Source of the DNA: Elusimicrobia bacterium GWA2_51_34 | Lineage (GTDB): Bacteria; Elusimicrobiota; Elusimicrobia; Elusimicrobiales; UBA9959 | Reading direction: 5' to 3' | Assembly: GCA_001799565.1 (NCBI GenBank) | Contig: MGTS01000007.1 | Coordinates: forward strand, 1 to 51,713 | DNA: 51,713 nucleotides | Part shown: positions 2,921 to 18,479 of the stretch, piece by piece | Layout: every line of letters begins with the position of its first letter | Position numbering within the stretch: the first letter of the stretch is position 1 | Translations under genes and position numbers: made by a program | The notes under the pieces: generated by a model | Seen by the model: only the letters and a program-made list of their open reading frames with translations | Database searches by the model: none | What the model was told of the DNA's origin: nothing

Positions 2921-3128
2921 GATGGATGGCGCGGTTTTGGCGGGGGGGCGGTTCATACAATCCAAATGAGAAAGTTTTATCAATGTCGGCCACCGGACCG
3001 GGTTTTTCCGATACAATCTAAAAAATAAAAAACGGGAACTCGCGGCGGAAATTAATCCAAAAAATACGTTAAATATTGCTTTCCGGCCCAAAACAACACG
3101 ACATGAGGTTGTCGCGGTCGTCTGCTAG

Positions 3129-3345: not shown

Positions 3346-3475
3346 ACAATCCGTACGGTGCCACCGCGCCCCAAGCGCGACCGGCAACCATTGAAGGACC
3401 CTTTGCAAAATGTCGCCGCTCTTGCAAAGAAATTCGCCCAGGCGGCCTAAAAGGCGAGGTTTATTAAGGAATATT

Positions 3476-3814
3476 ATGCAAAATATTATTCAACCTGGTA
3501 CCGTTGAGAAAAGGATCTGTCTGATACGGGGGCAAAAAGTGATTTTGGACTGCGACCTGGCCGCTATTTATGGAGTACCTACCAGACGTCTTAATGAGCA
3601 GGTCAAGCGCAATAAGGATAAGTTTCCGGAAGATTTTGCTTTTCGGCTTACTCAACGTGAGGTCGCAGATTTGGCCGCGCAAACCGTGAAAACGGTCCGG
3701 CCGGTGATGCGGTCGCAATTTGCGACCGCATATAAAAGGAATCTCCGGTTTCCTCCGTACGCATTCACGGAGCATGGGGCCGTTATGGCGGCCAATGTGT
3801 TGAATATTAAATAA
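3476..3814 (+). CDS. ORF6N-domain protein, C-terminally truncated
   Basis: Phage-type DNA-binding regulator domain (ORF6N, of the KilA-N/Bro family context). The ATG at 3476 is chosen because AAGGA lies 7 nt upstream; upstream in-frame codons look non-native. The protein has IRGQKVILDCDLAAIYGV, then LNEQVKRN, FPEDFAFRL, RSQFATAY and PYAFTEHG. These are the same blocks as the intact neighbour at 3992. It stops after NVLNIK, at the point where full-length homologues continue with a helical region, so about 60 residues are missing. The stop codon overlaps the ATG of a cas3-like fragment, indicating that a recombination joined the two. The remaining 112 residues may still fold and bind DNA. Confidence 0.7.
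   Translation: MQNIIQPGTVEKRICLIRGQKVILDCDLAAIYGVPTRRLNEQVKRNKDKFPEDFAFRLTQREVADLAAQTVKTVRPVMRSQFATAYKRNLRFPPYAFTEHGAVMAANVLNIK
3707..3731. repeat. Perfect 11-bp inverted repeat inside truncated ORF6N gene
   Basis: ATGCGGTCGCA (3707-3717), centre ATT, then TGCGACCGCAT (3721-3731). It encodes the RSQFATA stretch. The arm sequence differs from those in the neighbouring ORF6N genes, yet pairing is complete. Confidence 0.9.
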
Positions 3815-3978
3815 TGGAAGAGAAAATATACGCGCACACCAAAACCAATCCGGGCGGAGTTTCCAGAGAGATGTTCTTTCCAAAGGGGGGTACAAATTGT
3901 ACATACCCTTTGGATATCTGTTCTACAGAACACTGCCTCCCTCGCCCGCCGCTTCGCCGAAGCCGCCGGCCTGTTTAG
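3814..3978 (+). pseudogene. Fragment of a second cas3 5' end
   Basis: A 54-codon ORF starts with ATG at 3814 inside the TAA of the ORF6N gene. Its first 15 residues (MEEKIYAHTKTNPGG) match the start of the intact Cas3 at 5398 (MSEKKYYAHTKTNPDG). Codon differences and one indel show a related allele, not a recent copy. After about 50 nt the similarity ends and the rest looks like unrelated sequence. I read it as the leftover 5' tip of a replaced or deleted cas3. Confidence 0.7.
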
Positions 3979-3991
3979 GGAGGATTAACCT

Positions 3992-4537
3992 ATGAAAGAA
4001 ATTGTGCCGGTGGAAATAATAGAAAGCAAAATACTTCTGTTGCGCGGCCGCAAGGTAATGCTGGACCGCGACTTGGCGGCGCTCTACGGTGTGGCAACAA
4101 AAGCGCTCAACCAGGCCGTGAAACGGAAGGCAAGACGTTTCCCGGAAGACTTTATGTTCCGTCTGACAAAGGCCGAAATGCGTAATTGGAAGTCACAGTT
4201 TGTGACTTCCAATTCCAGGGTTAAAATGGGGCTTCGCAAAGCTCCATGCGCTTTTACGCAAAACGGCATATCCATGCTCTCAAGTGTTTTAAACAGCGAA
4301 CGGGCGGTAAACGTGAATATCCAGATAATGCGCACTTTCACCCGTCTTATGGAAATCATCTCCGCACATAAAGATTTGGCGCGTCGGCTTGATAAACTGG
4401 AAAGCAAATACGACACGCAGTTTAAAATAGTCTTTGACGTGATCCGGGAATTAATGGCCGTGCCGGAAAAGCCCAAAAAACGCATCGGTTTCACGGCTAA
4501 AGAAAAGCGCGCGAAATATTTGAGTCCGGTGTGTTAA
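3992..4537 (+). CDS. ORF6N-domain protein, intact
   Basis: A 181-residue putative DNA-binding protein. The ORF6N domain covers about residues 5-100 (LRGRKVMLDRDLAALYGV, LNQAVKRK, FPEDFMFRL, KSQFVTSN, APCAFTQNG, SSVLNSERAV). A helical region follows near 105-155 (VNIQIMRTFTRLMEI, then HKDLARRLDKLE), then a basic tail. Such proteins occur in phages and as stand-alone genes in many bacterial genomes; DNA binding is inferred from the family and the partner is unknown. The start at 3992 has AGGA 10 nt upstream. It lies upstream of the NYN nuclease and the cas operon and could regulate either; the sequence does not prove this. Confidence 0.8.
   Translation: MKEIVPVEIIESKILLLRGRKVMLDRDLAALYGVATKALNQAVKRKARRFPEDFMFRLTKAEMRNWKSQFVTSNSRVKMGLRKAPCAFTQNGISMLSSVLNSERAVNVNIQIMRTFTRLMEIISAHKDLARRLDKLESKYDTQFKIVFDVIRELMAVPEKPKKRIGFTAKEKRAKYLSPVC
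4184..4214. repeat. Perfect 14-bp inverted repeat inside intact ORF6N gene
   Basis: AATTGGAAGTCACA (4184-4197), centre GTT, then TGTGACTTCCAATT (4201-4214). It encodes NWKSQFVTSN. Same location and 3-nt centre as in the other ORF6N copies, with different arm sequence. Confidence 0.92.
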
Positions 4538-4607
4538 AGAGGCATAATATAACCAGGGGGGAAATTGAAAATAGCCGGAAATGCCGATTTTAAGCCAAAA
4601 TCAAAGT

Positions 4608-4643
4608 GACACACCCTTGTCGCGTTGATGTGGTAGGATATTT
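4608..4643 (+). promoter_or_regulatory. 36-bp element, copy 1, before NYN gene
   Basis: Bases 4608-4643 are identical to 5243-5278. The block runs from GACACACCCTTGTCGCG to GGTAGGATATTT and ends 3 nt before the NYN start codon, where no Shine-Dalgarno is seen. The TAGGATATTT end could be part of a promoter -10 region for a leaderless or near-leaderless message. In this copy the flanking inverted repeat is imperfect. Confidence 0.6.
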
Positions 4644-4646
4644 GTT

Positions 4647-5120
4647 ATGAACAATTATGCTTTTATAGACAGCCAAAATCTTAACCTGGCAGTCCAGAAT
4701 ATGGGTTGGAGGCTGGATTTTTTGAAATTCAGGGTCTACCTTAAAGACAAGTATCATGTTTCCAAAGCTTTTTTATTTATTGGGTATATCCCGCAAAACC
4801 AGTCGTTGTATTCTAACCTTCAACAGCAGGGTTTTATCCTTATATTCAAGCCAACCCTGGCTCTTCCTGGCGGTGGCGTTAAGGGGAATGTGGACGCGGA
4901 ACTTGTCCTTCATTCAATGATTGAATTCCTAAACTATGAAAAAGCCGTCATTGTTACGAGTGACGGGGATTTTTTCTGTCTTGCTGATTATTTGGTCCGC
5001 AAGGATAAATTGTTGAAATTGCTCATTCCCGACCGGAACAAATATTCCTCGCTTTTTAGAAAGCTGATGCCGCATATTGTTTTTATGAACGATTTAAGGG
5101 GAAAACTGGAGTATAAATGA
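4647..5120 (+). CDS. NYN-domain (LabA/DUF88-type, PIN-like) putative ribonuclease
   Basis: A 157-residue single-domain protein of the NYN group, PIN-like folds expected to be metal-dependent RNases. Acidic residues are where the family has them: D8 in FIDSQNL, D83 in GNVDAELVL, and D106/D108 in VTSDGDF. There is no signal peptide or membrane segment, so it is cytoplasmic. The gene is monocistronic between the ORF6N gene and cas3, and shares its 36-bp upstream element with the region before cas3. That suggests shared control with the CRISPR operon. Its RNA substrate is unknown. A role in defence or in transcript control is inference. Confidence 0.85.
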   Translation: MNNYAFIDSQNLNLAVQNMGWRLDFLKFRVYLKDKYHVSKAFLFIGYIPQNQSLYSNLQQQGFILIFKPTLALPGGGVKGNVDAELVLHSMIEFLNYEKAVIVTSDGDFFCLADYLVRKDKLLKLLIPDRNKYSSLFRKLMPHIVFMNDLRGKLEYK

Positions 5121-5397: not shown

Positions 5398-8127
5398 ATG
5401 TCAGAGAAAAAATATTACGCGCACACCAAAACTAATCCTGACGGCACCCCCGCGCCCCAAAGTGCCTGGCAGCTGCTGGATGAACATTTATGTAACATCT
5501 GGGCCAAGATCGGAAAAAAAGACGCTAGTTCTTGGCACCCGCTTATCCTTCACATGCTGGATGTTGCCGCTGTGGCAGAAGCGGTTCTGGAACGGGAGCC
5601 CGCTGCCGCCAAAACAACCATTGCGGCATGCCTTGGGATGAGTTGGAGTGATGCCCGCCCATGGTTGTTACTGGTCCTGTCGTGTCATGACTTGGGGAAA
5701 GCATGTCCAGGTTTCCAATCCAAATGGGCGGATGCGCCACAAACAGGTCTTAAAATGCCAGCCAGCCCGGACACCAGAATCAACCATGCTTTTGTGAGCC
5801 AAATTGCGTTGTCTGCTCTGCTGCAAGAAAAAGGATGGCCGCAGGATTTAGCGGATTTGCTTGGGGACGCTGTCGGCTGCCATCATGGGAATAGAGCATC
5901 TCCCACTATTTTGGGCCGCCTTAGCGGAAATAGAAGGGCTATAGGCGATAATGGTTGGCCGGAAGCCCGCCGTACCATGCTGGAGGCGATATTTCAGGTT
6001 TTTAAACCGGACCACCCGCCTGCCAAACAAACTCTTTCCGGTCCGGAATTTATGTCGTTGGCCGGGCTTACAAGCTTTTCCGATTGGATAGCCTCTGACG
6101 AAAATCACTTCCCATTCGGAAATATAGAGGATTGTTTAAACCTCCCGGCATGGTTCAAAAAACGCAGATTAATCGCGGAACAGACCCTTGATGAAATAGG
6201 CTGGCTGCCGCGCACCCCGCTTTCAACTGTGTCTAAATCATTTAAACAGGCCTTGGGTTTTGCACCGCGCCCTTTACAAAAAGCCGTCGTGCAAACATTA
6301 AAAAAACTTAAATCACCGGCTATTCTGCTGGTGGAAGCTCCTATGGGAGAGGGAAAGACTGAGGCCGCATTCTATGCGCATCTGGAATTGCAACGCCGTT
6401 TCGGCCACAGGGGATTGTATGTGGCTATGCCCACAAAAGCAACCGGCAATGCCATGTTCGGGAGAACCCTTGAGTTTTTGTGCCGCCAGGGAATTCAGCG
6501 CAGGCTGGATATGCAATTACTGCATGGCTCAGTCCTGTCTAACGATACATTCAAAAATCTTCGCCTTTCCGGAGTTGGTGATCCGGGCGATGGCGGCGAA
6601 GTCCGCGCCGCTGAATGGTTCACGTCCAAAAAGAAGGCTCTCCTGTCTGAATACGGCGTGGGTACAGTAGACCAGGCTTTGATGCCTATCCTGCCAGTAC
6701 GCCACAATTTTATGCGTTTCTGGGGGCTTGCCAATCGCGTGGTCATTTTTGACGAAATCCACGCCTATGACGCCTACACGGGCACGCTTTTGGTTCATCT
6801 GTTGCGCTGGCTTCTAGCAATGGGTTCTTCGGTGGTGCTACTTTCGGCTACGCTGTCTCCATCTTTCCGGCGCAAGCTGGCTAAAGTTGTAAATGTCGAA
6901 CTGCCTGAGCAGGAGAAAAAATACCCGCGGCTTTCTGTGTTTCGTCACGGCGCGGCAAAGGTTGAGCAGGTGCATTTTAAAGCGGAACAGTCACTCCACC
7001 GTGCGCTGCGGCTGGTTGCTATCCCGGCAGACCTTGCAGATATACAGGCTGCGCTGGAGCGGCATCTTCCCAATGGCGGAATGGGGCTGGTTTTGGTCAA
7101 CACGGTACAGCGGGCGCAGGACTTATATCGTCTTTTCCCTGACGGCGTGGTTGTGGAATGCGATGGGCAGCGTGTCGGGAAACGGCTTCCCGACGGGACG
7201 GAAATATTACTCTTTCACGCGCGTTTTCCCGCCGACAGCAGGCAGAAACGCGAGCAGCAGGTTTTGGAATTATTTAACAAAAGTGGAATACGGAAGGGTA
7301 GAAAAATCCTTATCGCCACGCAGGTCGCCGAGCAAAGCCTTGACTTGGATTTTGACTTGATCGTAACCGACCTTGCGCCGATTGACCTCATTCTTCAGCG
7401 GGCCGGGCGTTTATGGCGTCACGTGCGCGGGCCTCGGCCCGTACCTGAACCTACGCTTATAATTGCGGGGCTTGCGGGGGAAGAGCCGCCGTCGTTTGAA
7501 AAGCCATTATGGTGGAGCGCCATATATCGTGAAGACCTGTTGTTGCGTACTTGGGGCCTGCTCCGTACACGCAAGAACCTGGAACTGCCGGATGATATTG
7601 ATGTTTTGGTGCAGGCGGTATATGAAGGACAGGCGGATGTCCCAGAATCGTTGCGGGAACGCTTGGAGAAGGCCGGAATTAATGAAGAGGGAGAGGTTCT
7701 TGCCGAGCAATGCCAGGCCAACCAGGCCATAATCGGATTTCCCGATGACGCATCCTGGAATCAGCCGGAAAAATTTGTCCTTTATGATGAGGATGAGCCA
7801 GGTGTTCATAAAACCTTAATGGCCCAAACCCGGCTCGGCGGCACTTCTGCTGTCGCAATACCTGTATTCCCGGATGAGAATTTCAACCAAGTCCCGTTGT
7901 CAGAGGCTCAGGCGGAAGCCAGTTTTCTTCGGGCCTTGAGCCTGTCACGCAAGGGAGTTGTCGCAAAACTTCAAAGCAGTGGAGTCCCGGAAAGTTGGAA
8001 GAAATCACCGCTTTTGCGTAACTGTTTCCCGCTGGTTCTGGATCAGAATGGGCGCTGGGCTGTGGATTCCTCCGTGCGTCTTGATGAAGATTTGGGACTT
8101 GTTTATGAAACAAAGGAGACCAAATGA
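5398..8127 (+). CDS. cas3: Type I-E Cas3 nuclease-helicase
   Basis: Effector that is recruited by Cascade to nick and degrade target DNA while translocating. The N-terminal HD nuclease domain has H52, the H97-D98 pair in SCHDLGK, and a GCHHGN motif. The SF2 helicase follows: MGEGKT Walker A near residues 316-321, DEIH at 452-455, LLSATLS, QVAEQSLDLDFD and QRAGRLWRH (motifs V and VI). A C-terminal domain completes 909 residues, a normal full-length size. All catalytic motifs are present, so the enzyme should be active. It is first in the cas operon and its stop overlaps the cse1 start (ATGA). A fragment of a second cas3 start lies at 3814. Confidence 0.95.
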   Translation: MSEKKYYAHTKTNPDGTPAPQSAWQLLDEHLCNIWAKIGKKDASSWHPLILHMLDVAAVAEAVLEREPAAAKTTIAACLGMSWSDARPWLLLVLSCHDLGKACPGFQSKWADAPQTGLKMPASPDTRINHAFVSQIALSALLQEKGWPQDLADLLGDAVGCHHGNRASPTILGRLSGNRRAIGDNGWPEARRTMLEAIFQVFKPDHPPAKQTLSGPEFMSLAGLTSFSDWIASDENHFPFGNIEDCLNLPAWFKKRRLIAEQTLDEIGWLPRTPLSTVSKSFKQALGFAPRPLQKAVVQTLKKLKSPAILLVEAPMGEGKTEAAFYAHLELQRRFGHRGLYVAMPTKATGNAMFGRTLEFLCRQGIQRRLDMQLLHGSVLSNDTFKNLRLSGVGDPGDGGEVRAAEWFTSKKKALLSEYGVGTVDQALMPILPVRHNFMRFWGLANRVVIFDEIHAYDAYTGTLLVHLLRWLLAMGSSVVLLSATLSPSFRRKLAKVVNVELPEQEKKYPRLSVFRHGAAKVEQVHFKAEQSLHRALRLVAIPADLADIQAALERHLPNGGMGLVLVNTVQRAQDLYRLFPDGVVVECDGQRVGKRLPDGTEILLFHARFPADSRQKREQQVLELFNKSGIRKGRKILIATQVAEQSLDLDFDLIVTDLAPIDLILQRAGRLWRHVRGPRPVPEPTLIIAGLAGEEPPSFEKPLWWSAIYREDLLLRTWGLLRTRKNLELPDDIDVLVQAVYEGQADVPESLRERLEKAGINEEGEVLAEQCQANQAIIGFPDDASWNQPEKFVLYDEDEPGVHKTLMAQTRLGGTSAVAIPVFPDENFNQVPLSEAQAEASFLRALSLSRKGVVAKLQSSGVPESWKKSPLLRNCFPLVLDQNGRWAVDSSVRLDEDLGLVYETKETK

Positions 8128-9641
8128 GCCGATTTAATCTTATTGATGAAAAATGGATCCCTGTACGGTTCCTGAACGGGACCCGCAACGAGTTGGGAAT
8201 TATGGATACGCTCCTGCGCTCCAGCGAGATTGCGGCCATAGAAGACCAGTCCCCGCTGGTTGTTGCGGCGCTGCATCGCTTCTTGCTGGCGGTGCTTTAC
8301 CGCGCGCTGGAAGGCCCGACGGACATAGACCAGGCCAAAAATCTGTTTAAGACAGGTCTGCCGAAAGAAAAGATAAAGACTTATCTGGAGAAATGGCGCA
8401 ATAGATTCTGGTTGTTTGATGAAAAGTATCCTTTCGGACAAAATCCGCATATCCCAGAAGATGAGATTGAACCATGGACAAAACTGACAGCTGAATATAA
8501 TGCCCCGTCCAATAAAGTCCTTTTTGATCATACCGATGCAAAAAAACCTGGTGAGATGGAGTTAAAAACGTGCGCTCGTTGTTTGCTCTCTACAATGAAT
8601 TTCTCAATTAGCGGGGGCCGGGGTTATTACCCGTCCCCGTCTTCAAACGCAATAATGTGTATACCATTAGGCCGGGAGTTGCATGAGACACTCTGTTATA
8701 GTCTGGTTCCGTACCCAAACCGCAATGTGATGGCTGGTGATTCGGCTTTGTGGGAGCGTGAACCGGAAAAACTTCCACTTAAAAATTCAAAACGTATGGC
8801 GTCTGGCTATGCGGACCTCTACACATGGCAGTCCAGGATGATACTTCTTCAGGATGTGCAGGCACCCGGTGTGGAAACCATGCGGTTTGTTTCCGGGCAG
8901 GGTTTTGATAATTCCTCAAAAAATCATGACCCTATGCAGGCATATAGGCTCAGTGAAATTCATGGCGTCTTGCCTGTCCAGTTCCGAGAAGATAAAGGCG
9001 TGTGGCGTGATTTTTATTCTTTACTGCCTGATGATTCCGGGTTTGCCCCTTTGACGATTCAAAATGCTATTAAATTGGCTGGAAGTAAGGTTGATAAGAT
9101 GCCGAAGTCGGTTTTGGCTCTTGGTTTGCGATATGAACCACCAAGCGCGAATGTAAGCTTTTGGCGTATGGAACATTTTGTCCTGCCGTCGGAGTTGACG
9201 GGAGATCGTTTTATTCGGACTGAAATCCACCAGCTTCTTGAAGATGCGAACCACGTTCAAAAAGTCCTGTGGATGGCGTGTTCCTGTTTCGCGCAATTTC
9301 TTTTAAGCAGAGGGGAAAGAAAGCCGGATAAAAGAGATGTAAGTGAATTCATAAAACAAATTCCAGCAATTCCACGCTATTGGTCCATACTGGAGTCCCA
9401 CTTCCATGAAGTATTAGGAGACTATGCGGCCGACTGTGACCCCGATGAAATCCGTTGTCGGTGGCTGAACCATGTGCGGGATACTTTAAAGATGGTTTGG
9501 GAACAATATGCCGCTTCGGTTTTAGAGGGAGATGCCTGGGCAATCCGCGCGCTTGTAAAAGCCGAAGGCGCGGTGCGGGATAAAGTGAAAGAATTGGATG
9601 GCGAAATGGAAAAATGCAAAAAGCAGGAGGTAAATCAATGA
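8124..9641 (+). CDS. cse1: Cascade large subunit Cse1 (Cas8e/CasA)
   Basis: Large subunit of the type I-E surveillance complex, which recognises the PAM and recruits Cas3. At 505 residues it is the usual length. The N-terminus FNLIDEKWIPVRFLNG is characteristic of the family. A CARC pair near residue 150 and a following GGRGYYPSP loop lie in the region that in relatives binds zinc or contacts the PAM. The four-helix C-terminal bundle is predicted from about residue 370. The start overlaps the cas3 stop by 4 nt and the stop overlaps the cse2 start by 4 nt, so the three genes are translationally coupled. Confidence 0.93.
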   Translation: MSRFNLIDEKWIPVRFLNGTRNELGIMDTLLRSSEIAAIEDQSPLVVAALHRFLLAVLYRALEGPTDIDQAKNLFKTGLPKEKIKTYLEKWRNRFWLFDEKYPFGQNPHIPEDEIEPWTKLTAEYNAPSNKVLFDHTDAKKPGEMELKTCARCLLSTMNFSISGGRGYYPSPSSNAIMCIPLGRELHETLCYSLVPYPNRNVMAGDSALWEREPEKLPLKNSKRMASGYADLYTWQSRMILLQDVQAPGVETMRFVSGQGFDNSSKNHDPMQAYRLSEIHGVLPVQFREDKGVWRDFYSLLPDDSGFAPLTIQNAIKLAGSKVDKMPKSVLALGLRYEPPSANVSFWRMEHFVLPSELTGDRFIRTEIHQLLEDANHVQKVLWMACSCFAQFLLSRGERKPDKRDVSEFIKQIPAIPRYWSILESHFHEVLGDYAADCDPDEIRCRWLNHVRDTLKMVWEQYAASVLEGDAWAIRALVKAEGAVRDKVKELDGEMEKCKKQEVNQ

Positions 9642-10132
9642 GTGGTTTTATTGTGTGGCTGGAAAAATTGAATGCTGAAGGCAGAAAAGCCAGGGCCGTA
9701 TTGCGCCGCAGTCTGGCTTTTGAGCCGGGAGCGTATGTCCCCGCATATCCTTATGTTGAACCGTTTCTAAAAGACGAAGAGAATCAGTGGAGGAGGGAAA
9801 TGTATTATCTTGTTGCTGGTTTATGGGCGGCGCATTGGCAGGAAGGGAAGATCGGTGTTCCGCAGTCTATTGGAGCAGCTTGCGCAAAACTAACAAATTC
9901 CGCAAGCACAGAGCGCCGTTTTATAACCCTCTTGGATGCCAACGAGGACCAGTTGGCGTACCGACTGCGCCAGATGATGGCGCTGCTTAAAGAACAACCC
10001 ATCAACTATGAATCGCTGCTAACCGGGTTATTGTATTGGAATGACGACCGGAAGCGCACCCAGAATACCTGGGCCCGCGACTTCTATCGGAATGTGAGTG
10101 ATACAACAGAACTTAACACACAGGAGAAATAA
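9638..10132 (+). CDS. cse2: Cascade small subunit Cse2 (CasB)
   Basis: Small alpha-helical subunit, usually present as a dimer along the Cascade belly, stabilising the R-loop. The start is placed at ATG 9638, which overlaps the cse1 stop (ATGA) and follows AGGAGG at a good distance; an upstream in-frame start would lie inside cse1. The 164-residue protein has family-type blocks: a VLRRSLAFEPGA segment, a LVAGLWAAH helix, LRQMMALL and a C-terminal WARDFY. Confidence 0.9.
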   Translation: MSGFIVWLEKLNAEGRKARAVLRRSLAFEPGAYVPAYPYVEPFLKDEENQWRREMYYLVAGLWAAHWQEGKIGVPQSIGAACAKLTNSASTERRFITLLDANEDQLAYRLRQMMALLKEQPINYESLLTGLLYWNDDRKRTQNTWARDFYRNVSDTTELNTQEK

Positions 10133-10136
10133 ACAA

Positions 10137-11297
10137 ATGAAAACCTTAATCGAAATCCACGCATTGCAGAACTTCGCTCCCTCAAACCTGAACAGGGATG
10201 ACTCCGGGGCTCCCAAAGACGCCTTTTTCGGAGGCACTCGCCGCGCCCGCATCTCCAGCCAATGCCTAAAACGCGCGGTGCGAGGGTATTTTGAGCAGAA
10301 AAAAGATGAAGGCTTTTTTAAGTCTGATGACCTTGCTGTTCGGACTAAGCGACTATATCAGGCCATCGCCGATTTACTTAAGGGAAAACGTGACGGCTCT
10401 GAAGTCCTGGCCAAGGCGGAAATTGCGTTGTCTTATGTTAAGCTTAAAGCGGCGGAAGGGGGTAAAACACAATACTTGCTTTTCCTTGGACAAAAAGAAA
10501 TAGCGGCATTAGCCGAGGCTATCAATAAATACTGGGATCAAATTATACCTGTCAAAGAAGAAACCGGAGAAAATGGGAGGAAGAAAGGAAATAAGAAAAA
10601 GGAAGCCGCCGGTGGCGCTCCAAAAGAAGTTCAAGAGCAAATCGGGGCCATTTTTAATGGCGGGAAGGCCGTTGATGTGGCGCTTTTCGGGCGTATGCTT
10701 GCGGATATGCCGGAAAAAAACCAGAATGCCGCCTGCCAGGTGGCACACGCTATTTCAACCCATTCCGTTGAAAGAGAGTTCGACTTCTATACCGCAGTCG
10801 ACGACCTTAAGCCGGAGGACAGCTCCGGCGCTGATATGATGGGCACGGTTGAATTTAATTCCGCCTGTTTCTACCGTTATGCAGTGTTGGATTGGGGAAA
10901 ATTAGTGGAAAATCTTCAAGACGATAAAGAGCTGGCCGCCAGGGGACTGCGCGCTTTCCTGGAAGGGTTTGTGGTTGCCGAACCTACCGGGAAACAGAAT
11001 ACCTTCGCGGCCCACAACCCACCGGAGTTTGTGGCTGTTTCCGTGCGCCGCAACACCGCGCCCCGCAACCTGGCTAATGCTTTTGAAACTGCCCTTTTCG
11101 CGCGGAAAGGCGAGTCGATAACGGGGAAATCGGCGGAAAAACTTATTGAAAAAGCTAAGGCTTTAAGAACAGTTTACGGTGGAGAAGAAAAAACATTCAT
11201 CCTAAACCTTACTAATGCCAAGTCGGATGACCTGGGAACAACTCTGCCGGCATTGAAAGAGCTTCTTGATAAGGCTTGTTCGGCCGCACAGGAGTGA
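10137..11297 (+). CDS. cas7e: Cascade backbone Cas7e (Cse4/CasC)
   Basis: Backbone subunit; six copies normally coat the crRNA spacer. The ATG at 10137 is preferred over an upstream frame start because it has AGGAG 11 nt upstream and gives the canonical N-terminus (IEIHALQNFAPSNLNRDD, then GGTRRARISSQCLKRA). At 386 residues it is slightly long; a Lys/Gly-rich insert near residues 140-165 (ENGRKKGNKKKEAAGG) is likely a surface loop. The RAMP core includes ADMMGTVEFNSACFYRYA and KQNTFAAHNPP. It lies between cse2 and cas5e with only short gaps. Confidence 0.94.
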   Translation: MKTLIEIHALQNFAPSNLNRDDSGAPKDAFFGGTRRARISSQCLKRAVRGYFEQKKDEGFFKSDDLAVRTKRLYQAIADLLKGKRDGSEVLAKAEIALSYVKLKAAEGGKTQYLLFLGQKEIAALAEAINKYWDQIIPVKEETGENGRKKGNKKKEAAGGAPKEVQEQIGAIFNGGKAVDVALFGRMLADMPEKNQNAACQVAHAISTHSVEREFDFYTAVDDLKPEDSSGADMMGTVEFNSACFYRYAVLDWGKLVENLQDDKELAARGLRAFLEGFVVAEPTGKQNTFAAHNPPEFVAVSVRRNTAPRNLANAFETALFARKGESITGKSAEKLIEKAKALRTVYGGEEKTFILNLTNAKSDDLGTTLPALKELLDKACSAAQE

Positions 11298-11300
11298 CCT

Positions 11301-11981
11301 ATGACTACATTGCTGCTTAAGTTGGCAGGCCCCATGCAGTCGTGGGGCACTACCAGCCGTTTTGATCAGCGCGATACCGGCAAAGAGCCCAGCAAGTCCG
11401 GAGTTATAGGGCTCCTGGCCGCCGCCATGGGAATTGACCAGGAAAACTGGACAGAACTTGAGCCTTTAACGTGCTTGTCCATGGGTGTAAGGCATGACCG
11501 CCCCGGCGTTCCCAAGTATGATTATCAGACGGCACAGCATATTATTTCTGCGGACCGCGCAAAAATCCATGAGACGGCTGTCACAAAGAGAGACTATATT
11601 GCTGACGCCGCTTTTTTGGTTGGGTTTGAGGGAGGGGATTCTGGTTTATTGCTACGGCTTAATGCGGCGTTACGCAATCCCGTCTGGCCGCCTGCATTAG
11701 GGCGCAAATCCTATGTGCCATCGGAGCCGGTATGGATTGAAAACGGGGTACAGAACGCTCCGCTGAAGGATGTCTTAATGGGATGGCCCTGGATTACTTC
11801 AGAGCGGAAATGGGAAAAGCGGCCAGAGAAATTATTGTTTTCTTTTGAGTCCGCTGACGGCTCCGGAGTCCTTAAGATGGACCAGCCGTTATCCTCTTTT
11901 GCCGAGAGGCGTTTTGGCGCCAGGTTTGTCCGTTCCGAATGGATACCGTTCCCGCAGGAGGCCTCCAATGTTTCTGCATAA
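11301..11981 (+). CDS. cas5e: Cascade Cas5e (CasD)
   Basis: RAMP-fold subunit that caps the 5' handle of the crRNA. The 226-residue protein starts with LLLKLAGPMQSWGTTSRFDQRDTG-type blocks. It continues with PSKSGVIGLLAAAMG and AERRFGARFVRSEW near the C-terminus, typical of type I-E Cas5. GGAG lies just before the ATG. The last 14 nt overlap the start of cas6e. Confidence 0.92.
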   Translation: MTTLLLKLAGPMQSWGTTSRFDQRDTGKEPSKSGVIGLLAAAMGIDQENWTELEPLTCLSMGVRHDRPGVPKYDYQTAQHIISADRAKIHETAVTKRDYIADAAFLVGFEGGDSGLLLRLNAALRNPVWPPALGRKSYVPSEPVWIENGVQNAPLKDVLMGWPWITSERKWEKRPEKLLFSFESADGSGVLKMDQPLSSFAERRFGARFVRSEWIPFPQEASNVSA

Positions 11982-12648
11982 AATACATCTCAACCCGCGA
12001 AGCAGGGAAGCAAGACGGGATATTGCAGATCCGTATGAACTGCATTCCACTCTTTGCCGCGCGTTTTCAACTGCTGACCGCAAATGTCCAGAAGGTGAAT
12101 TTTTATGGCGGCTTGAGCCGGAAGCGGATTCCAATGGGAACCCCCGCATTTTAATCCAAAGCCGGTCGCTTCCTGACTGGTCGCGCATGGGGTTGAACGA
12201 CTGGCTGGCTGAAACGCCTGCCGACGGTATTAATATTGCTGAGCACTTAAAACTTAACTCCCTGAAGTCTGGACAACTGTTCCGGTTCCGTCTGCGCGCA
12301 AACCCAACTGTTACCCGCAACAGTAAGCGTTTTGGGCTACTTCGTTTGCCAGAACAGGAATTATGGATAGATCGTAAAGGACGCGAACAACATGGTTTTG
12401 CTCTGCCGTATAGCGTGTCTCCGGACCTCACAGAACAGGCTCAGCGTCGGGTTATTGTCCGTATTTACCAGGAGAGGATGTTGGCCGGAAGGAGAAGGAA
12501 TGGGGCTGAAATCCGTGTTTTTTCAGTTTTATATGACGGAATGTTAACTGTTGTTGATGTGGATAAATTCCGGGCCGCTTTACAGAACGGAATAGGGCAT
12601 GCGAAAGCCATGGGGCTTGGTTTATTGTCGGTAGCTCCGGTTTTATAA
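11968..12648 (+). CDS. cas6e: crRNA endoribonuclease Cas6e (Cse3/CasE)
   Basis: Cuts pre-crRNA at the base of the repeat hairpin and stays bound to the 3' handle. The start at 11968 (CAGGAGG 7 nt upstream) gives the canonical MFLHKIHLNP N-terminus; the longer upstream frame runs inside cas5e. A family-type catalytic His is visible in YELHSTLCRAFS near residue 27. The C-terminal glycine-rich loop GIGHAKAMGLGLLSV is intact. Length is 226 residues. The matching substrate is the array at 14801 with an 18-nt palindromic repeat centre. Confidence 0.92.
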   Translation: MFLHKIHLNPRSREARRDIADPYELHSTLCRAFSTADRKCPEGEFLWRLEPEADSNGNPRILIQSRSLPDWSRMGLNDWLAETPADGINIAEHLKLNSLKSGQLFRFRLRANPTVTRNSKRFGLLRLPEQELWIDRKGREQHGFALPYSVSPDLTEQAQRRVIVRIYQERMLAGRRRNGAEIRVFSVLYDGMLTVVDVDKFRAALQNGIGHAKAMGLGLLSVAPVL

Positions 12649-12676: not shown

Positions 12677-13509
12677 ATGGATGCAAAAATGGCTGTTTTT
12701 AAAGGGAAAAAAATAAGGAGAATCCTTCATAATAATGAGTGGTGGTTTTCAATTGTAGATGTGGTCTCGGCCCTGACGGAGAGTTTTAATCCGCGTGATT
12801 ATTGGTATAAAATGAAAATTAGGGTAAAAACGGAGGAGAGGTCCGAGTTGTCGACATTTTGTCTACAACTGAAATTGGAATCAGCGGACGGTAAAAAATA
12901 CGAAACCGACTGCGCCAATACAGAGGGGATATTCCGGATTATACAGTCTATTTCCTCTCCCAAAGCCGAACCGTTCAAACGATGGCTGGCAAAAGTAGGC
13001 TATGAACGAGTGCAGGAAATTGAAGACCCTGAACTGGCAGCCAAAAGAACCAGGTTGCTCTATAAACTTAAAGGGTATTCTGAAAGCTGGATAGAAAAGC
13101 GGATGCGCGGAATTGCTATTCGCGAAGAATTGACGGATGAATGGCAAAAGCGGGGCGTAAAAAAACAAAAAGAATATGAAATTCTTACTGCCGAAATTTC
13201 TAAAGCCACTTTCGGTGTGACGCCTAGCCAATATAAAAAACTGAAGGGATTGGAACGGCAAAATTTGCGCGACCATATGGATGACTTGGAGTTGATTTTC
13301 AATATGCTTGGCGAGCGAGTGACAACCGAAATTTCCCAGCAAGAGAAGCCGGATACATTTATGAAAAATAAAAAGGTGGCGGAGAGAGGCGGAAGCGTTG
13401 CCGGAAATGCCAGAAAACAAACAGAAAAAGAAATCGGCAGGAGCGTAGTTTCCCCAAAAAATTATGTGCAAACTCCGGAAAATCGTAAGAAGTTGGAAAG
13501 GAAGAAACA

Positions 13510-13513
<4 letters not shown>
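12677..13513 (+). CDS. BRO-N domain protein inside the cas operon
   Basis: A 278-residue BRO family protein, a DNA-binding antirepressor-like group best known from phages and baculoviruses. BRO-N covers residues 1-100: VFKGKKIRRILHNNEWWFS, VVSALTESFNPRDYWYKMK, ELSTFCLQLKLES, ANTEGIFRIIQSI, KRWLAKVGYERVQEIEDPELA. A conserved C-terminal region follows (GYSESWIEKRMRGIAIREELTDEW in shorter pieces), then a basic tail. AGGAG precedes the ATG. Its stop overlaps the cas1 start (ATGA), so it is co-translated with cas1. It is not a standard type I-E gene. Its role, perhaps regulating adaptation or the operon, is inference. Confidence 0.88.
12846..12870. repeat. 11-bp inverted repeat (one mismatch) inside BRO-N gene
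   Basis: AGTTGTCGACA (12846-12856), centre TTT, then TGTCTACAACT (12860-12870). One position does not pair. The ACA-TTT-TGT core and 3-nt centre match the design of the ORF6N-gene palindromes. It encodes ELSTFCLQL in the DNA-binding domain. Confidence 0.8.
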
Positions 13514-14707
<1,194 letters not shown>

Positions 14708-14800
14708 GTTCTTTGACAATTTGGTAGGCCTTAAAATCGGCTACCGGACGATTTTAGGCTTACAAAGCGTTTATAGGGCATTTTAAGCGCAAATAGAAGT
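14708..14800 (+). promoter_or_regulatory. CRISPR leader
   Basis: A 93-nt AT-rich stretch between the cas2 stop and the first repeat. It has a TTGACA box at 14713-14718 and an AAAATCG/CGATTTT inverted pair (14733-14739 with 14749-14755). It is the expected site of array promoter and integration signals. The absence of repeats before it and the presence of cas2 fix the array orientation, with newest spacers near 14.83 kb. Confidence 0.75.
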
Positions 14801-17800
14801 ATGTTCCCCACACGTGTGGGGATGAACCGGCTTTTAAGAACAGCCACGCGCCACCACCTTTATGTTCCCCACACGTGTGGGGATGAACCGCCCGCGACCT
14901 TATAAAAAAAAACCGTTGCGCGATGTTCCCCACACGTGTGGGGATGAACCGAGAACCCGCCGTAATGCAGGCTCTCTTTTTTTATGTTCCCCACACGTGT
15001 GGGGATGAACCGGGTGGCCTTGCAGAAATAATTGAAGCCCGACAATGTTCCCCACACGTGTGGGGATGAACCGGCATACCTGTAGCTCGGACGTGGCCGC
15101 GCAAAATGTTCCCCACACGTGTGGGGATGAACCGGAGATAAAAATGAAATTCCGTGACGATATGATATGTTCCCCACACGTGTGGGGATGAACCGTATAT
15201 ATATTGTGCAAACTCCCCCCCTGCCCAATGTTCCCCACACGTGTGGGGATGAACCTTATCATTTGAAAGGTCAGATTCCAGAGTTTTCATGTTCCCCACA
15301 CGTGTGGGGATGAACCGATGCTCATCAGTAACGGCAAACGGCCGCTTAGATGTTCCCCACACGTGTGGGGATGAACCGAGAGGGAAGAATGAACGGACCG
15401 AAACAAATACATGTTCCCCACACGTGTGGGGATGAACCGCGGGCTAGAAAACTCTGGCAACTCGCCGAACTATGTTCCCCACACGTGTGGGGATGAACCG
15501 TTCGTGATGAAATGATGGTTGAGTTGCATAAAATGTTCCCCACACGTGTGGGGATGAACCGTCTGTTGTTATTCAGGATTTGCTTTGGAATGAATGTTCC
15601 CCACACGTGTGGGGATGAACCGACTATTTTACTTCTTCTCTTCCGTGGCCTCAGATGTTCCCCACACGTGTGGGGATGAACCGCCACGCCGGAGAAATCA
15701 GCGCGGCGGGTAATTATGTTCCCCACACGTGTGGGGATGAACCGGCCAGCTATTATATGACTCCCTGGCCGTGCCGATGTTCCCCACACGTGTGGGGATG
15801 AACCGGTCAGCAGGATAGTCCGACTGACCTTATCGACATGTTCCCCACACGTGTGGGGATGAACCGCGCTGAATATTGACCCGGCTGGTTCTCTGGAGAT
15901 GTTCCCCACACGTGTGGGGATGAACCGTTAGTACCTATTCTTGTTGAAGAGGTTGTCCCATGTTCCCCACACGTGTGGGGATGAACCGTAATAAATGCCG
16001 ACGACAGCGTAGGATTAGCGATGTTCCCCACACGTGTGGGGATGAACCGATGTTTCCGGCGTTGTGCGCCTTTCGTGGGCTATGTTCCCCACACGTGTGG
16101 GGATGAACCGTTATACAACGCTGGCCAGCCATTTTTTTCACTATGTTCCCCACACGTGTGGGGATGAACCGACCGTGCGCTCGCACGTCGTGCCCGCCAA
16201 TCCATGTTCCCCACACGTGTGGGGATGAACCGAAGCCGGGCGCTGTCGTCCCTACCGTCTCCCAATGTTCCCCACACGTGTGGGGATGAACCGACTTTTG
16301 AGAACAGCCACGCGCCACCACCTTTATGTTCCCCACACGTGTGGGGATGAACCGTCGAAACGGTCTTTTAAGCGTTCAGTTCGGAGATGTTCCCCACACG
16401 TGTGGGGATGAACCGAAATATCGAACCCGCCGGGCACTATTTTTGCGATGTTCCCCACACGTGTGGGGATGAACCGGTAGCGGCGGCGGCGGCGGCGAAA
16501 AAATGTTCCCCACACGTGTGGGGATGAACCGCGCCGGGTCCGACGCAAATATCCTACCCATATATGTTCCCCACACGTGTGGGGATGAACCGATGATTCA
16601 CGCTGACGATACTCATCGTAACGAATGTTCCCCACACGTGTGGGGATGAACCGTTAGTACCCATTATGTGTGAAGAGGTTGTCCCATGTTCCCCACACGT
16701 GTGGGGATGAACCGCCTTAACTGGCGCCTTTTCAGACGCGCCCTGGATGTTCCCCACACGTGTGGGGATGAACCGAGTCGAACCGCTCGCCGCTAAATCG
16801 TTCGTGCATGTTCCCCACACGTGTGGGGATGAACCGACCGCCACACACGCCGCGCCGTTCAAAATTTCATGTTCCCCACACGTGTGGGGATGAACCGTAA
16901 TCACCCAGAGAATGAGCTTCCCAACCGGTATGTTCCCCACACGTGTGGGGATGAACCGCCACGCGAGCGCGCGGACTCCGTTTGTTCGTTATGTTCCCCA
17001 CACGTGTGGGGATGAACCGGCCCGCGCAAAACAATAACAACGAAAATTCGCATGTTCCCCACACGTGTGGGGATGAACCGCGGCATTTACAAAGTGCTGA
17101 TAGTCGCCTAGTATGTTCCCCACACGTGTGGGGATGAACCGAATAATTCCCATAACATCAGTCTCACCTTCTAATGTTCCCCACACGTGTGGGGATGAAC
17201 CGGCTTCATGCAGGGCTATGCTTGTGCCGTTTATATGTTCCCCACACGTGTGGGGATGAACCGCCCTATGATGGCGGGCTTCCTCACGCCGGAGAATGTT
17301 CCCCACACGTGTGGGGATGAACCGACCGTGCGTTCGCACGTCGTGCCTGCCAATCCATGTTCCCCACACGTGTGGGGATGAACCGCCACGCCGGAGAAAT
17401 CAACGATACCGGCAATTATGTTCCCCACACGTGTGGGGATGAACCGTTTCCGCACCATCTCCATGGAAAGACTTTTGAATGTTCCCCACACGTGTGGGGA
17501 TGAACCGACTTTTAAGAACAGCCACGCGCCACCACCTTTATGTTCCCCACACGTGTGGGGATGAACCGCCGACGGGGGGGGTCCGGCCCGGCCTCGGGCC
17601 ATGTTCCCCACACGTGTGGGGATGAACCGGTGCAGCCGGCGGGAACCTTCACGGTACAGGCATGTTCCCCACACGTGTGGGGATGAACCGGGATATTATG
17701 CGTAATGAAAAACGGGGCCTCTATGTTCCCCACACGTGTGGGGATGAACCGACCGTATGCTCCACGCTGGACATCGGTGCGGAATGTTCCCCACACGTGT

Positions 17801-18479
17801 GGGGATGAACCGGTGGATCCGCCGCGGGTTAAGATATGCACAATATGTTCCCCACACGTGTGGGGATGAACCGCGCGCTCCGTACGCTGATAATCGGCAA
17901 CTTGAATGTTCCCCACACGTGTGGGGATGAACCGGGGTTGTGTTGCTATGGATGCGTCCTGTATACATGTTCCCCACACGTGTGGGGATGAACCGAGGTA
18001 GGCGGTGATGTGTACGTCAATGCCGGTATGTTCCCCACACGTGTGGGGATGAACCGTAATCGGGGTTCAGTCGTCCAATACTGTTAAAATGTTCCCCACA
18101 CGTGTGGGGATGAACCGGCGACTGCACGCTTAAGCGCGTTTACCATCACATGTTCCCCACACGTGTGGGGATGAACCGCATCAGGTGATACCAATTATGT
18201 CACCCCATGTTCCCCACACGTGTGGGGATGAACCGAAAAAATAACTTTTTCGGCTATGGTCAGGAAAATGTTCCCCACACGTGTGGGGATGAACCGGGAA
18301 AAATAACTTTTTCGGCCATGGTTAGGAAATGTTCCCCACACGTGTGGGGATGAACCGGTGTGTCAAGGATTCCATGTATAAGAAAAACTATGTTCCCCAC
18401 ACGTGTGGGGATGAACCGTGAAAAAAACGCTGTGCGGGATGTCGGATTGCATGTTCCCCACACGTGTGGGGATGAACCG
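14801..18479 (+). CRISPR. Type I-E CRISPR array, 61 repeats and 60 spacers
   Basis: The 29-nt repeat begins ATGTTCCCCACACG and ends GGGGATGAACCG; first copy 14801-14829, last 18451-18479. Hand count gives 61 repeats and 60 spacers. All intervals are 61 nt (32-nt spacers) except the spacer at 16477-16502 (26 nt) and the one at 18179-18206 (28 nt). The centre TCCCCACACGTGTGGGGA is a perfect 18-nt palindrome. All repeats agree except the one at 15228, whose last base is T instead of G. Several spacers are near-copies of others (see findings). The conserved repeats, full cas gene set and large spacer number suggest an active system. Confidence 0.98.

Follow-up and report, generated by a model that had tools for sequence, protein, structure and literature searches.

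In the type I-E CRISPR system of Escherichia coli, spacers are 32 nt long, the PAM is AAG and the last base of the repeat is set by the PAM. Repeated acquisition at one site is already known from Sulfolobus islandicus, where the sections of Held et al. 2010 (PMC2946923) drawn on here describe paired spacers that resemble each other without common ancestry, in some cases offset and with SNPs (two in one offset pair), and interpret them as captured independently at almost one and the same position of the virus. The pairs are attributed there to captures in different strains living side by side, with an offset in 37 of the 41. CRISPR spacers matching Microviridae are described for Chlorobium clathratiforme in the part of PMC8226683 consulted, as two spacers in a type I-C array. 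In the open-licence literature, no report was found of CRISPR spacers against Microviridae in Elusimicrobia, nor of type I-E spacers against the Microviridae major capsid protein; the one paper listed there for microviruses with an Elusimicrobia host deals with hot springs. Measured against these sections, what is new in the locus analyzed here is the pairing of host and target.

The window, i.e. the whole stretch of DNA analyzed, comprises 51,713 nt of contig MGTS01000007.1 from Elusimicrobia bacterium GWA2_51_34 (GCA_001799565.1). It encodes a type I-E gene set (cas3, cse1, cse2, cas7, cas5, cas6e, cas1e and cas2) in one operon, and a type I-E CRISPR array:

5398-12648, + strand: cas3, cse1, cse2, cas7, cas5 and cas6e (NCBIfam type I-E models)
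12677-13513, + strand: gene with a Bro-N domain (Pfam PF02498) within the cas operon
13510-14433, + strand: cas1e (TIGR03638)
14414-14707, + strand: cas2, CT1978 type (PF09707)
14708-14800, + strand: presumed leader between cas2 and the first repeat, assigned by position only, with a putative function
14801-18479, + strand: CRISPR array, 61 repeats and 60 spacers

NCBIfam matches above cut-off were obtained for cse1, cse2, cas7, cas5, cas6e, cas1e and the core and HD domains of Cas3, while cas2 was recognized by Pfam. The gene set, repeat, 32-nt spacers and putative AAG-like PAM resemble those of E. coli, from which the locus differs by the Bro-N domain gene between cas6e and cas1. The product of this gene (278 aa; PF02498, E 7e-15), whose reading frame overlaps cas1 by four bases, has homologues with 60-79% identity that adjoin cas1 in four related I-E genomes (G010, G011, G013 and G018), and it is possibly a conserved accessory gene of this I-E system. 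Directly 5' of cas3 (3410-5120), two ORF6N-domain genes and one NYN-domain gene were found.

The first 28 bases of the repeat are invariant in 61 of 61 copies (1,708 bases, zero differences), and base 29 is G in 60 of 61 and T in one, the repeat before spacer 8. Together with spacers of 32 nt in 58 of 60 cases, this is the type I-E format; the two exceptions are one spacer of 26 nt (16477-16502, a GGC-repeat run) and one of 28 nt (18179-18206). A pattern search of the whole 2.63 Mb draft genome (43 contigs), allowing up to three mismatches, returned 61 repeat copies, every one in the array. The array repeat and cas1 were absent from both other genomes of the genus searched.

The first-pass annotation had described four groups of spacers between 14830 and 17539 whose members differ by few bases, and had read them as repeated hits on the same sites of an evolving virus or element. 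All 60 spacers were compared with each other on both strands, using five shuffled sets as control. The top seven pairs, which form five groups, scored 17.5-31, against 9-13 for the best pair of each shuffled set. The four groups (A, B, D and E) were all recovered as diverged near-duplicates above the shuffles and the coordinates given for them are all true spacer starts; a fifth group, C (18236/18297), had been overlooked, and the array runs on past the span to 18479. The members are:

14830-14861, + strand: spacer 1, group A, without target match
16294-16325, + strand: spacer 25, group A, without target match
17508-17539, + strand: spacer 45, group A, without target match
16172-16203, + strand: spacer 23, group B, without target match
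17325-17356, + strand: spacer 42, group B, without target match
18236-18267, + strand: spacer 57, group C, shifted one base relative to spacer 58, without target match
18297-18328, + strand: spacer 58, group C, without target match
15684-15715, + strand: spacer 15, group D, without target match
17386-17417, + strand: spacer 43, group D, without target match
15928-15959, + strand: spacer 19, group E, microvirus capsid motif LVPILVEEVV
16654-16685, + strand: spacer 31, group E, capsid motif LVPIMCEEVV, 28 of 32 bases in the virus locus L016 with AAG upstream

Groups A, B and C have two differing sites each, group D six and group E five. The differences lie at spacer positions 1 and 7 in group A, at 9 and 24 in group B and at 9, 13, 15, 16 and 17 in group E, whereas the group D spacers have their first 17 bases in common and differ at positions 18, 21, 22, 23, 25 and 28. 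Group C consists of adjacent spacers that agree at 28 of 30 overlapping bases once shifted by one base against each other; the other four groups keep the same register, and their members are 12 to 44 array positions apart. Compared with the Sulfolobus pairs, as far as these are covered by the sections of PMC2946923 cited above, the Elusimicrobiota array is thus distinct in being of type I-E, in being a single array and in keeping register in four of five groups. The spacer at 17264 (spacer 41) had also been proposed to overlap those at 15684 and 17386. The 11-base overlap scores 11, which is inside the shuffled range and by itself at chance level; the reading frame does continue across it (PYDGGLPHAGE / HAGEIxxxGN), which is only suggestive. 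The 11 bases that spacers 8 and 11 have in common on opposite strands are likewise at chance level. Diverged near-duplicate pairs were also seen in the arrays of two related genomes, one at 181 and 1096 (L113; offset 4 bases, score 18) and one at 3019 and 3446 (L110; offset 6 bases, score 16).

A sizeable share of the array, including at least one of the groups, very likely derives from gokushovirus-like Microviridae, which have circular genomes of ~4.2 kb. When compared to 50,697 phage records, the array matched 77 records, and among the matches listed 28 of 30 were spacer 14 on Microviridae capsid genes. With a codon-degenerate pattern of group E, five contigs of 3.9-4.4 kb were obtained from IMG/VR, all five with a capsid (VP1) match in an iterated search of 38 loci and all used here as microviruses, and a capsid protein search found 204 relatives, of which 80 were kept. 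The closest virus, L016, encodes proteins matching phrog_514 (major head protein), phrog_942 (replication initiation) and phrog_8689 (pilot protein), and two further proteins gave no family match in the same search. At the nucleotide level, spacers 31 and 9 each share 28 of 32 bases with L016, and over 86 loci there were 24 matches with at most six mismatches, against none in five shuffled sets. At the protein level, a score of at least 38 was reached by 10 of the 60 spacers (14, 31, 30, 9, 29, 20, 51, 19, 13 and 11), compared to 0.33% of 600 shuffled spacers (0.2 expected in 60) and 1 of 59 spacers in the arrays of five related genomes. Spacer 11, with a score of 38 against an off-frame ORF of L028, is inside this count, but its match is probably due to chance and it is left out of the target list. 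Spacer matches to the capsid and Rep genes of one clade were above control; the spacers placed in these viruses outside group E are:

15623-15654, + strand: spacer 14, microvirus capsid motif YFTSSLPWPQ
15318-15349, + strand: spacer 9, microvirus capsid motif KRPFAVTDEH, antisense, L016 match at 28 of 32 bases
15989-16020, + strand: spacer 20, microvirus capsid motif ANPTLSSAFI, antisense
16532-16563, + strand: spacer 29, microvirus capsid motif MGRIFASDPA, antisense
16593-16624, + strand: spacer 30, microvirus capsid motif RYDEYRQRES, antisense
17874-17905, + strand: spacer 51, microvirus Rep motif QVADYQRTER, antisense, in one close genome only
15562-15593, + strand: spacer 13, SVVIQDLLWN in a small microvirus ORF that lies upstream of the capsid gene

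No exact protospacer was found for any of the 60 spacers in the collections searched. For spacers 14, 30, 31, 29, 20 and 26, one or more of the six genomes with the highest scores have AAG upstream; in the fetched viruses AAG occurs at several homologous sites and other triplets at many. Under column-averaged profile scoring, only spacers 14, 30, 31, 29, 19 and 20 exceeded all four shuffled sets, spacer 9 did not, and weak candidates were not separated from the null. Spacers 8, 16, 18, 26, 27, 34, 35, 38 and 40 had scores equal or close to the null, and no microviral origin is claimed for them. Spacer 8, which follows the sole repeat with a terminal T, bears a weak resemblance to a Rep motif with TAT before it in L016 and L027, a small agreement only. 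Eight of the nine better microviral spacers lie within 23 positions (P ~0.016, with the width picked after seeing the data). In simulations with AAG protospacers from six clade genomes (60 sampled each), 28-57% were detected, from which ~18-35 of the 60 spacers may be microviral after correction for sensitivity, on the assumption that the fetched viruses resemble the real targets as much as they resemble one another. Relative to the two Chlorobium spacers, as described in the part of PMC8226683 consulted, this array is distinguished by about ten or more microviral spacers, by its type I-E context and by diverged re-captures of one capsid site.

That site is the one of group E. Both of its spacers code for LVPI..EEVVPGD, a capsid motif of gokushovirus-like Microviridae that was present in 53 of 100 loci. 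The dipeptide within the motif is MC in 10 of these 53 loci and LV in 7, with 15 other types distributed over the remaining 36, and the codon in the PAM slot is lysine in 10 of 53 (AAG in 5, AAA in 5). As MC and LV are both seen in fetched viruses, both group E spacers carry natural capsid alleles. The two alleles occur in different virus genomes and neither spacer was matched exactly, the fewest mismatches in any genome being 4 for spacer 31 and 8 for spacer 19. Comparing spacer variants with viral lineages, as had been suggested, gave two alleles in different genomes but no exact match for group E, and no protospacer for groups A-D. For these four groups there were zero pattern matches in IMG/VR and no target in the microvirus loci or in 340 genomes of the phylum, ten of which gave matches (own array included): the one inspected by coordinates, in G109, falls on a repeat, and the others are weak or in genomes with arrays. 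Among the plasmid matches listed for groups A-D, none exceeded 80% identity, and these join many repeat-spaced pieces; in its own genome, the array gave only short matches outside itself. It is possible that groups A-D are directed at microviruses. The proposal that the same sites of an evolving virus were hit repeatedly is therefore well supported by internal evidence as regards independent capture, in five groups, but its target is placed for group E only, and for groups A-D a shared evolving virus is presumed. Assignment of group A to the Rep motif TYDDxHLPP was dropped, as its score was within the null and the changes would be non-synonymous there, and assignment of group C to a scaffolding protein was considered and found unsupported.

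The array very likely recorded homologous protospacers from diverged small-virus lineages in separate events. The competing idea, in which recombination between repeats produced extra copies of individual repeat-spacer units that mutated later, agrees with three groups differing by just 1-2 bases in unchanged register and with B standing just before A twice (spacers 23/25 and 42/45), yet spacers 24 and 44, between B and A, are unrelated. More generally, spacers flanking group members are unrelated to each other, and group members differ at 1-6 sites while all 61 repeats are identical over 28 bases, on which grounds duplication of whole blocks was rejected. Gene conversion of the repeats could hide mutations, which would weaken only the argument from identical repeats. 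Copying within the array does not yield a shift against the repeat such as the single base in group C, which therefore speaks for separate acquisition. Each of groups A, B and C has its two changes at a distance divisible by three (6, 15 and 6 bases, respectively), and every one of the six is a transition, the pattern expected of synonymous codon positions; the group B peptide TVRSHVVPAN is unaltered by its two changes. With the group E variants being capsid alleles as well, duplication appears improbable: the substitutions, which had been held to argue against it from the start, are joined by the repeats, neighbours, group C shift and transition pattern, which taken together favour separate acquisition.

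The clustered changes in groups D and E look like changes limited to a few codons, as might arise if one element with several diverged copies of a site (a gene family or the variable region of a diversity-generating retroelement) had been captured in one period. However, group E is an ordinary capsid motif with variants that are common between-genome alleles, for which reason a retroelement source was set aside, and the spacing of 12 to 44 positions outside group C implies many acquisitions between captures, making such an origin very improbable. Chance similarity or assembly error, which might be considered for a draft in 43 contigs, has a negligible probability given scores far above the shuffles, sixty distinct spacers in a regular array and a group E that is meaningful at the protein level. 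We infer that independent acquisition holds for all groups, as does their order in time, and capture of homologous sites from several lineages circulating side by side within a small virus family fits better than one evolving lineage.

Separate acquisition at recurring sites would follow if Cas1e-Cas2e captures 32-nt protospacers beside a fixed AAG-like PAM: repeated sampling of a short, conserved genome would then hit one PAM site again and again in unchanged register, and the differences between spacer copies would reflect divergence of the sampled viruses. Six clade genomes contain 140-209 AAG sites each, and for 18-35 random spacers over ~150 sites 1 to 4 same-site pairs are expected, compared to 0.1-0.4 for a 40-kb phage. 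The seven pairs observed are somewhat above 1 to 4, and a special hot spot is possible but not required for them. It is a doubtful extension that the spacers, in their order, document one wave of related microviruses after another in an Elusimicrobiota host, with an old spacer that matches imperfectly priming capture anew at the site it targets, each time in unchanged register; if so, the closely placed earliest members of A, B and D (spacers 45, 42 and 43) and the later return (25, 23 and 15) would represent two waves.

The host belongs to the Elusimicrobiota, and its order includes G071, a genome with an integrated microvirus. The G071 stretch is identical over 13,509 bases to the 93-kb contig DBYY01000007.1 of Elusimicrobia bacterium UBA1174, in which microvirus Rep, pilot, capsid and other genes lie between cellular genes:

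L112, 3984-8291: integrated microvirus of UBA1174 with Rep, pilot protein, scaffold-like and capsid genes

Together with a capsid gene 56% identical to that of L016 in an Endomicrobium MAG, this indicates that related microviruses occur in Elusimicrobiota, although among 101 genomes searched (own included) the capsid gene was found in G071 only. Virus relatives were present at 13 loci in contigs of other phyla, among them Treponema and Bacteroidetes MAGs, and the virus clade is thus not exclusive to Elusimicrobiota. Capsid genes of relatives were also seen in contigs labelled Endomicrobium, Treponema and Spirochaetaceae.

Judged from its spacers, the host would be immune against these microviruses, and this immune record ties a clade of ssDNA microviruses to the Elusimicrobiota. 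A single array here displays same-register capture of diverged alleles; such arrays could act as ordered samples of virus evolution and could be used to test chance re-capture in tiny genomes against primed adaptation.
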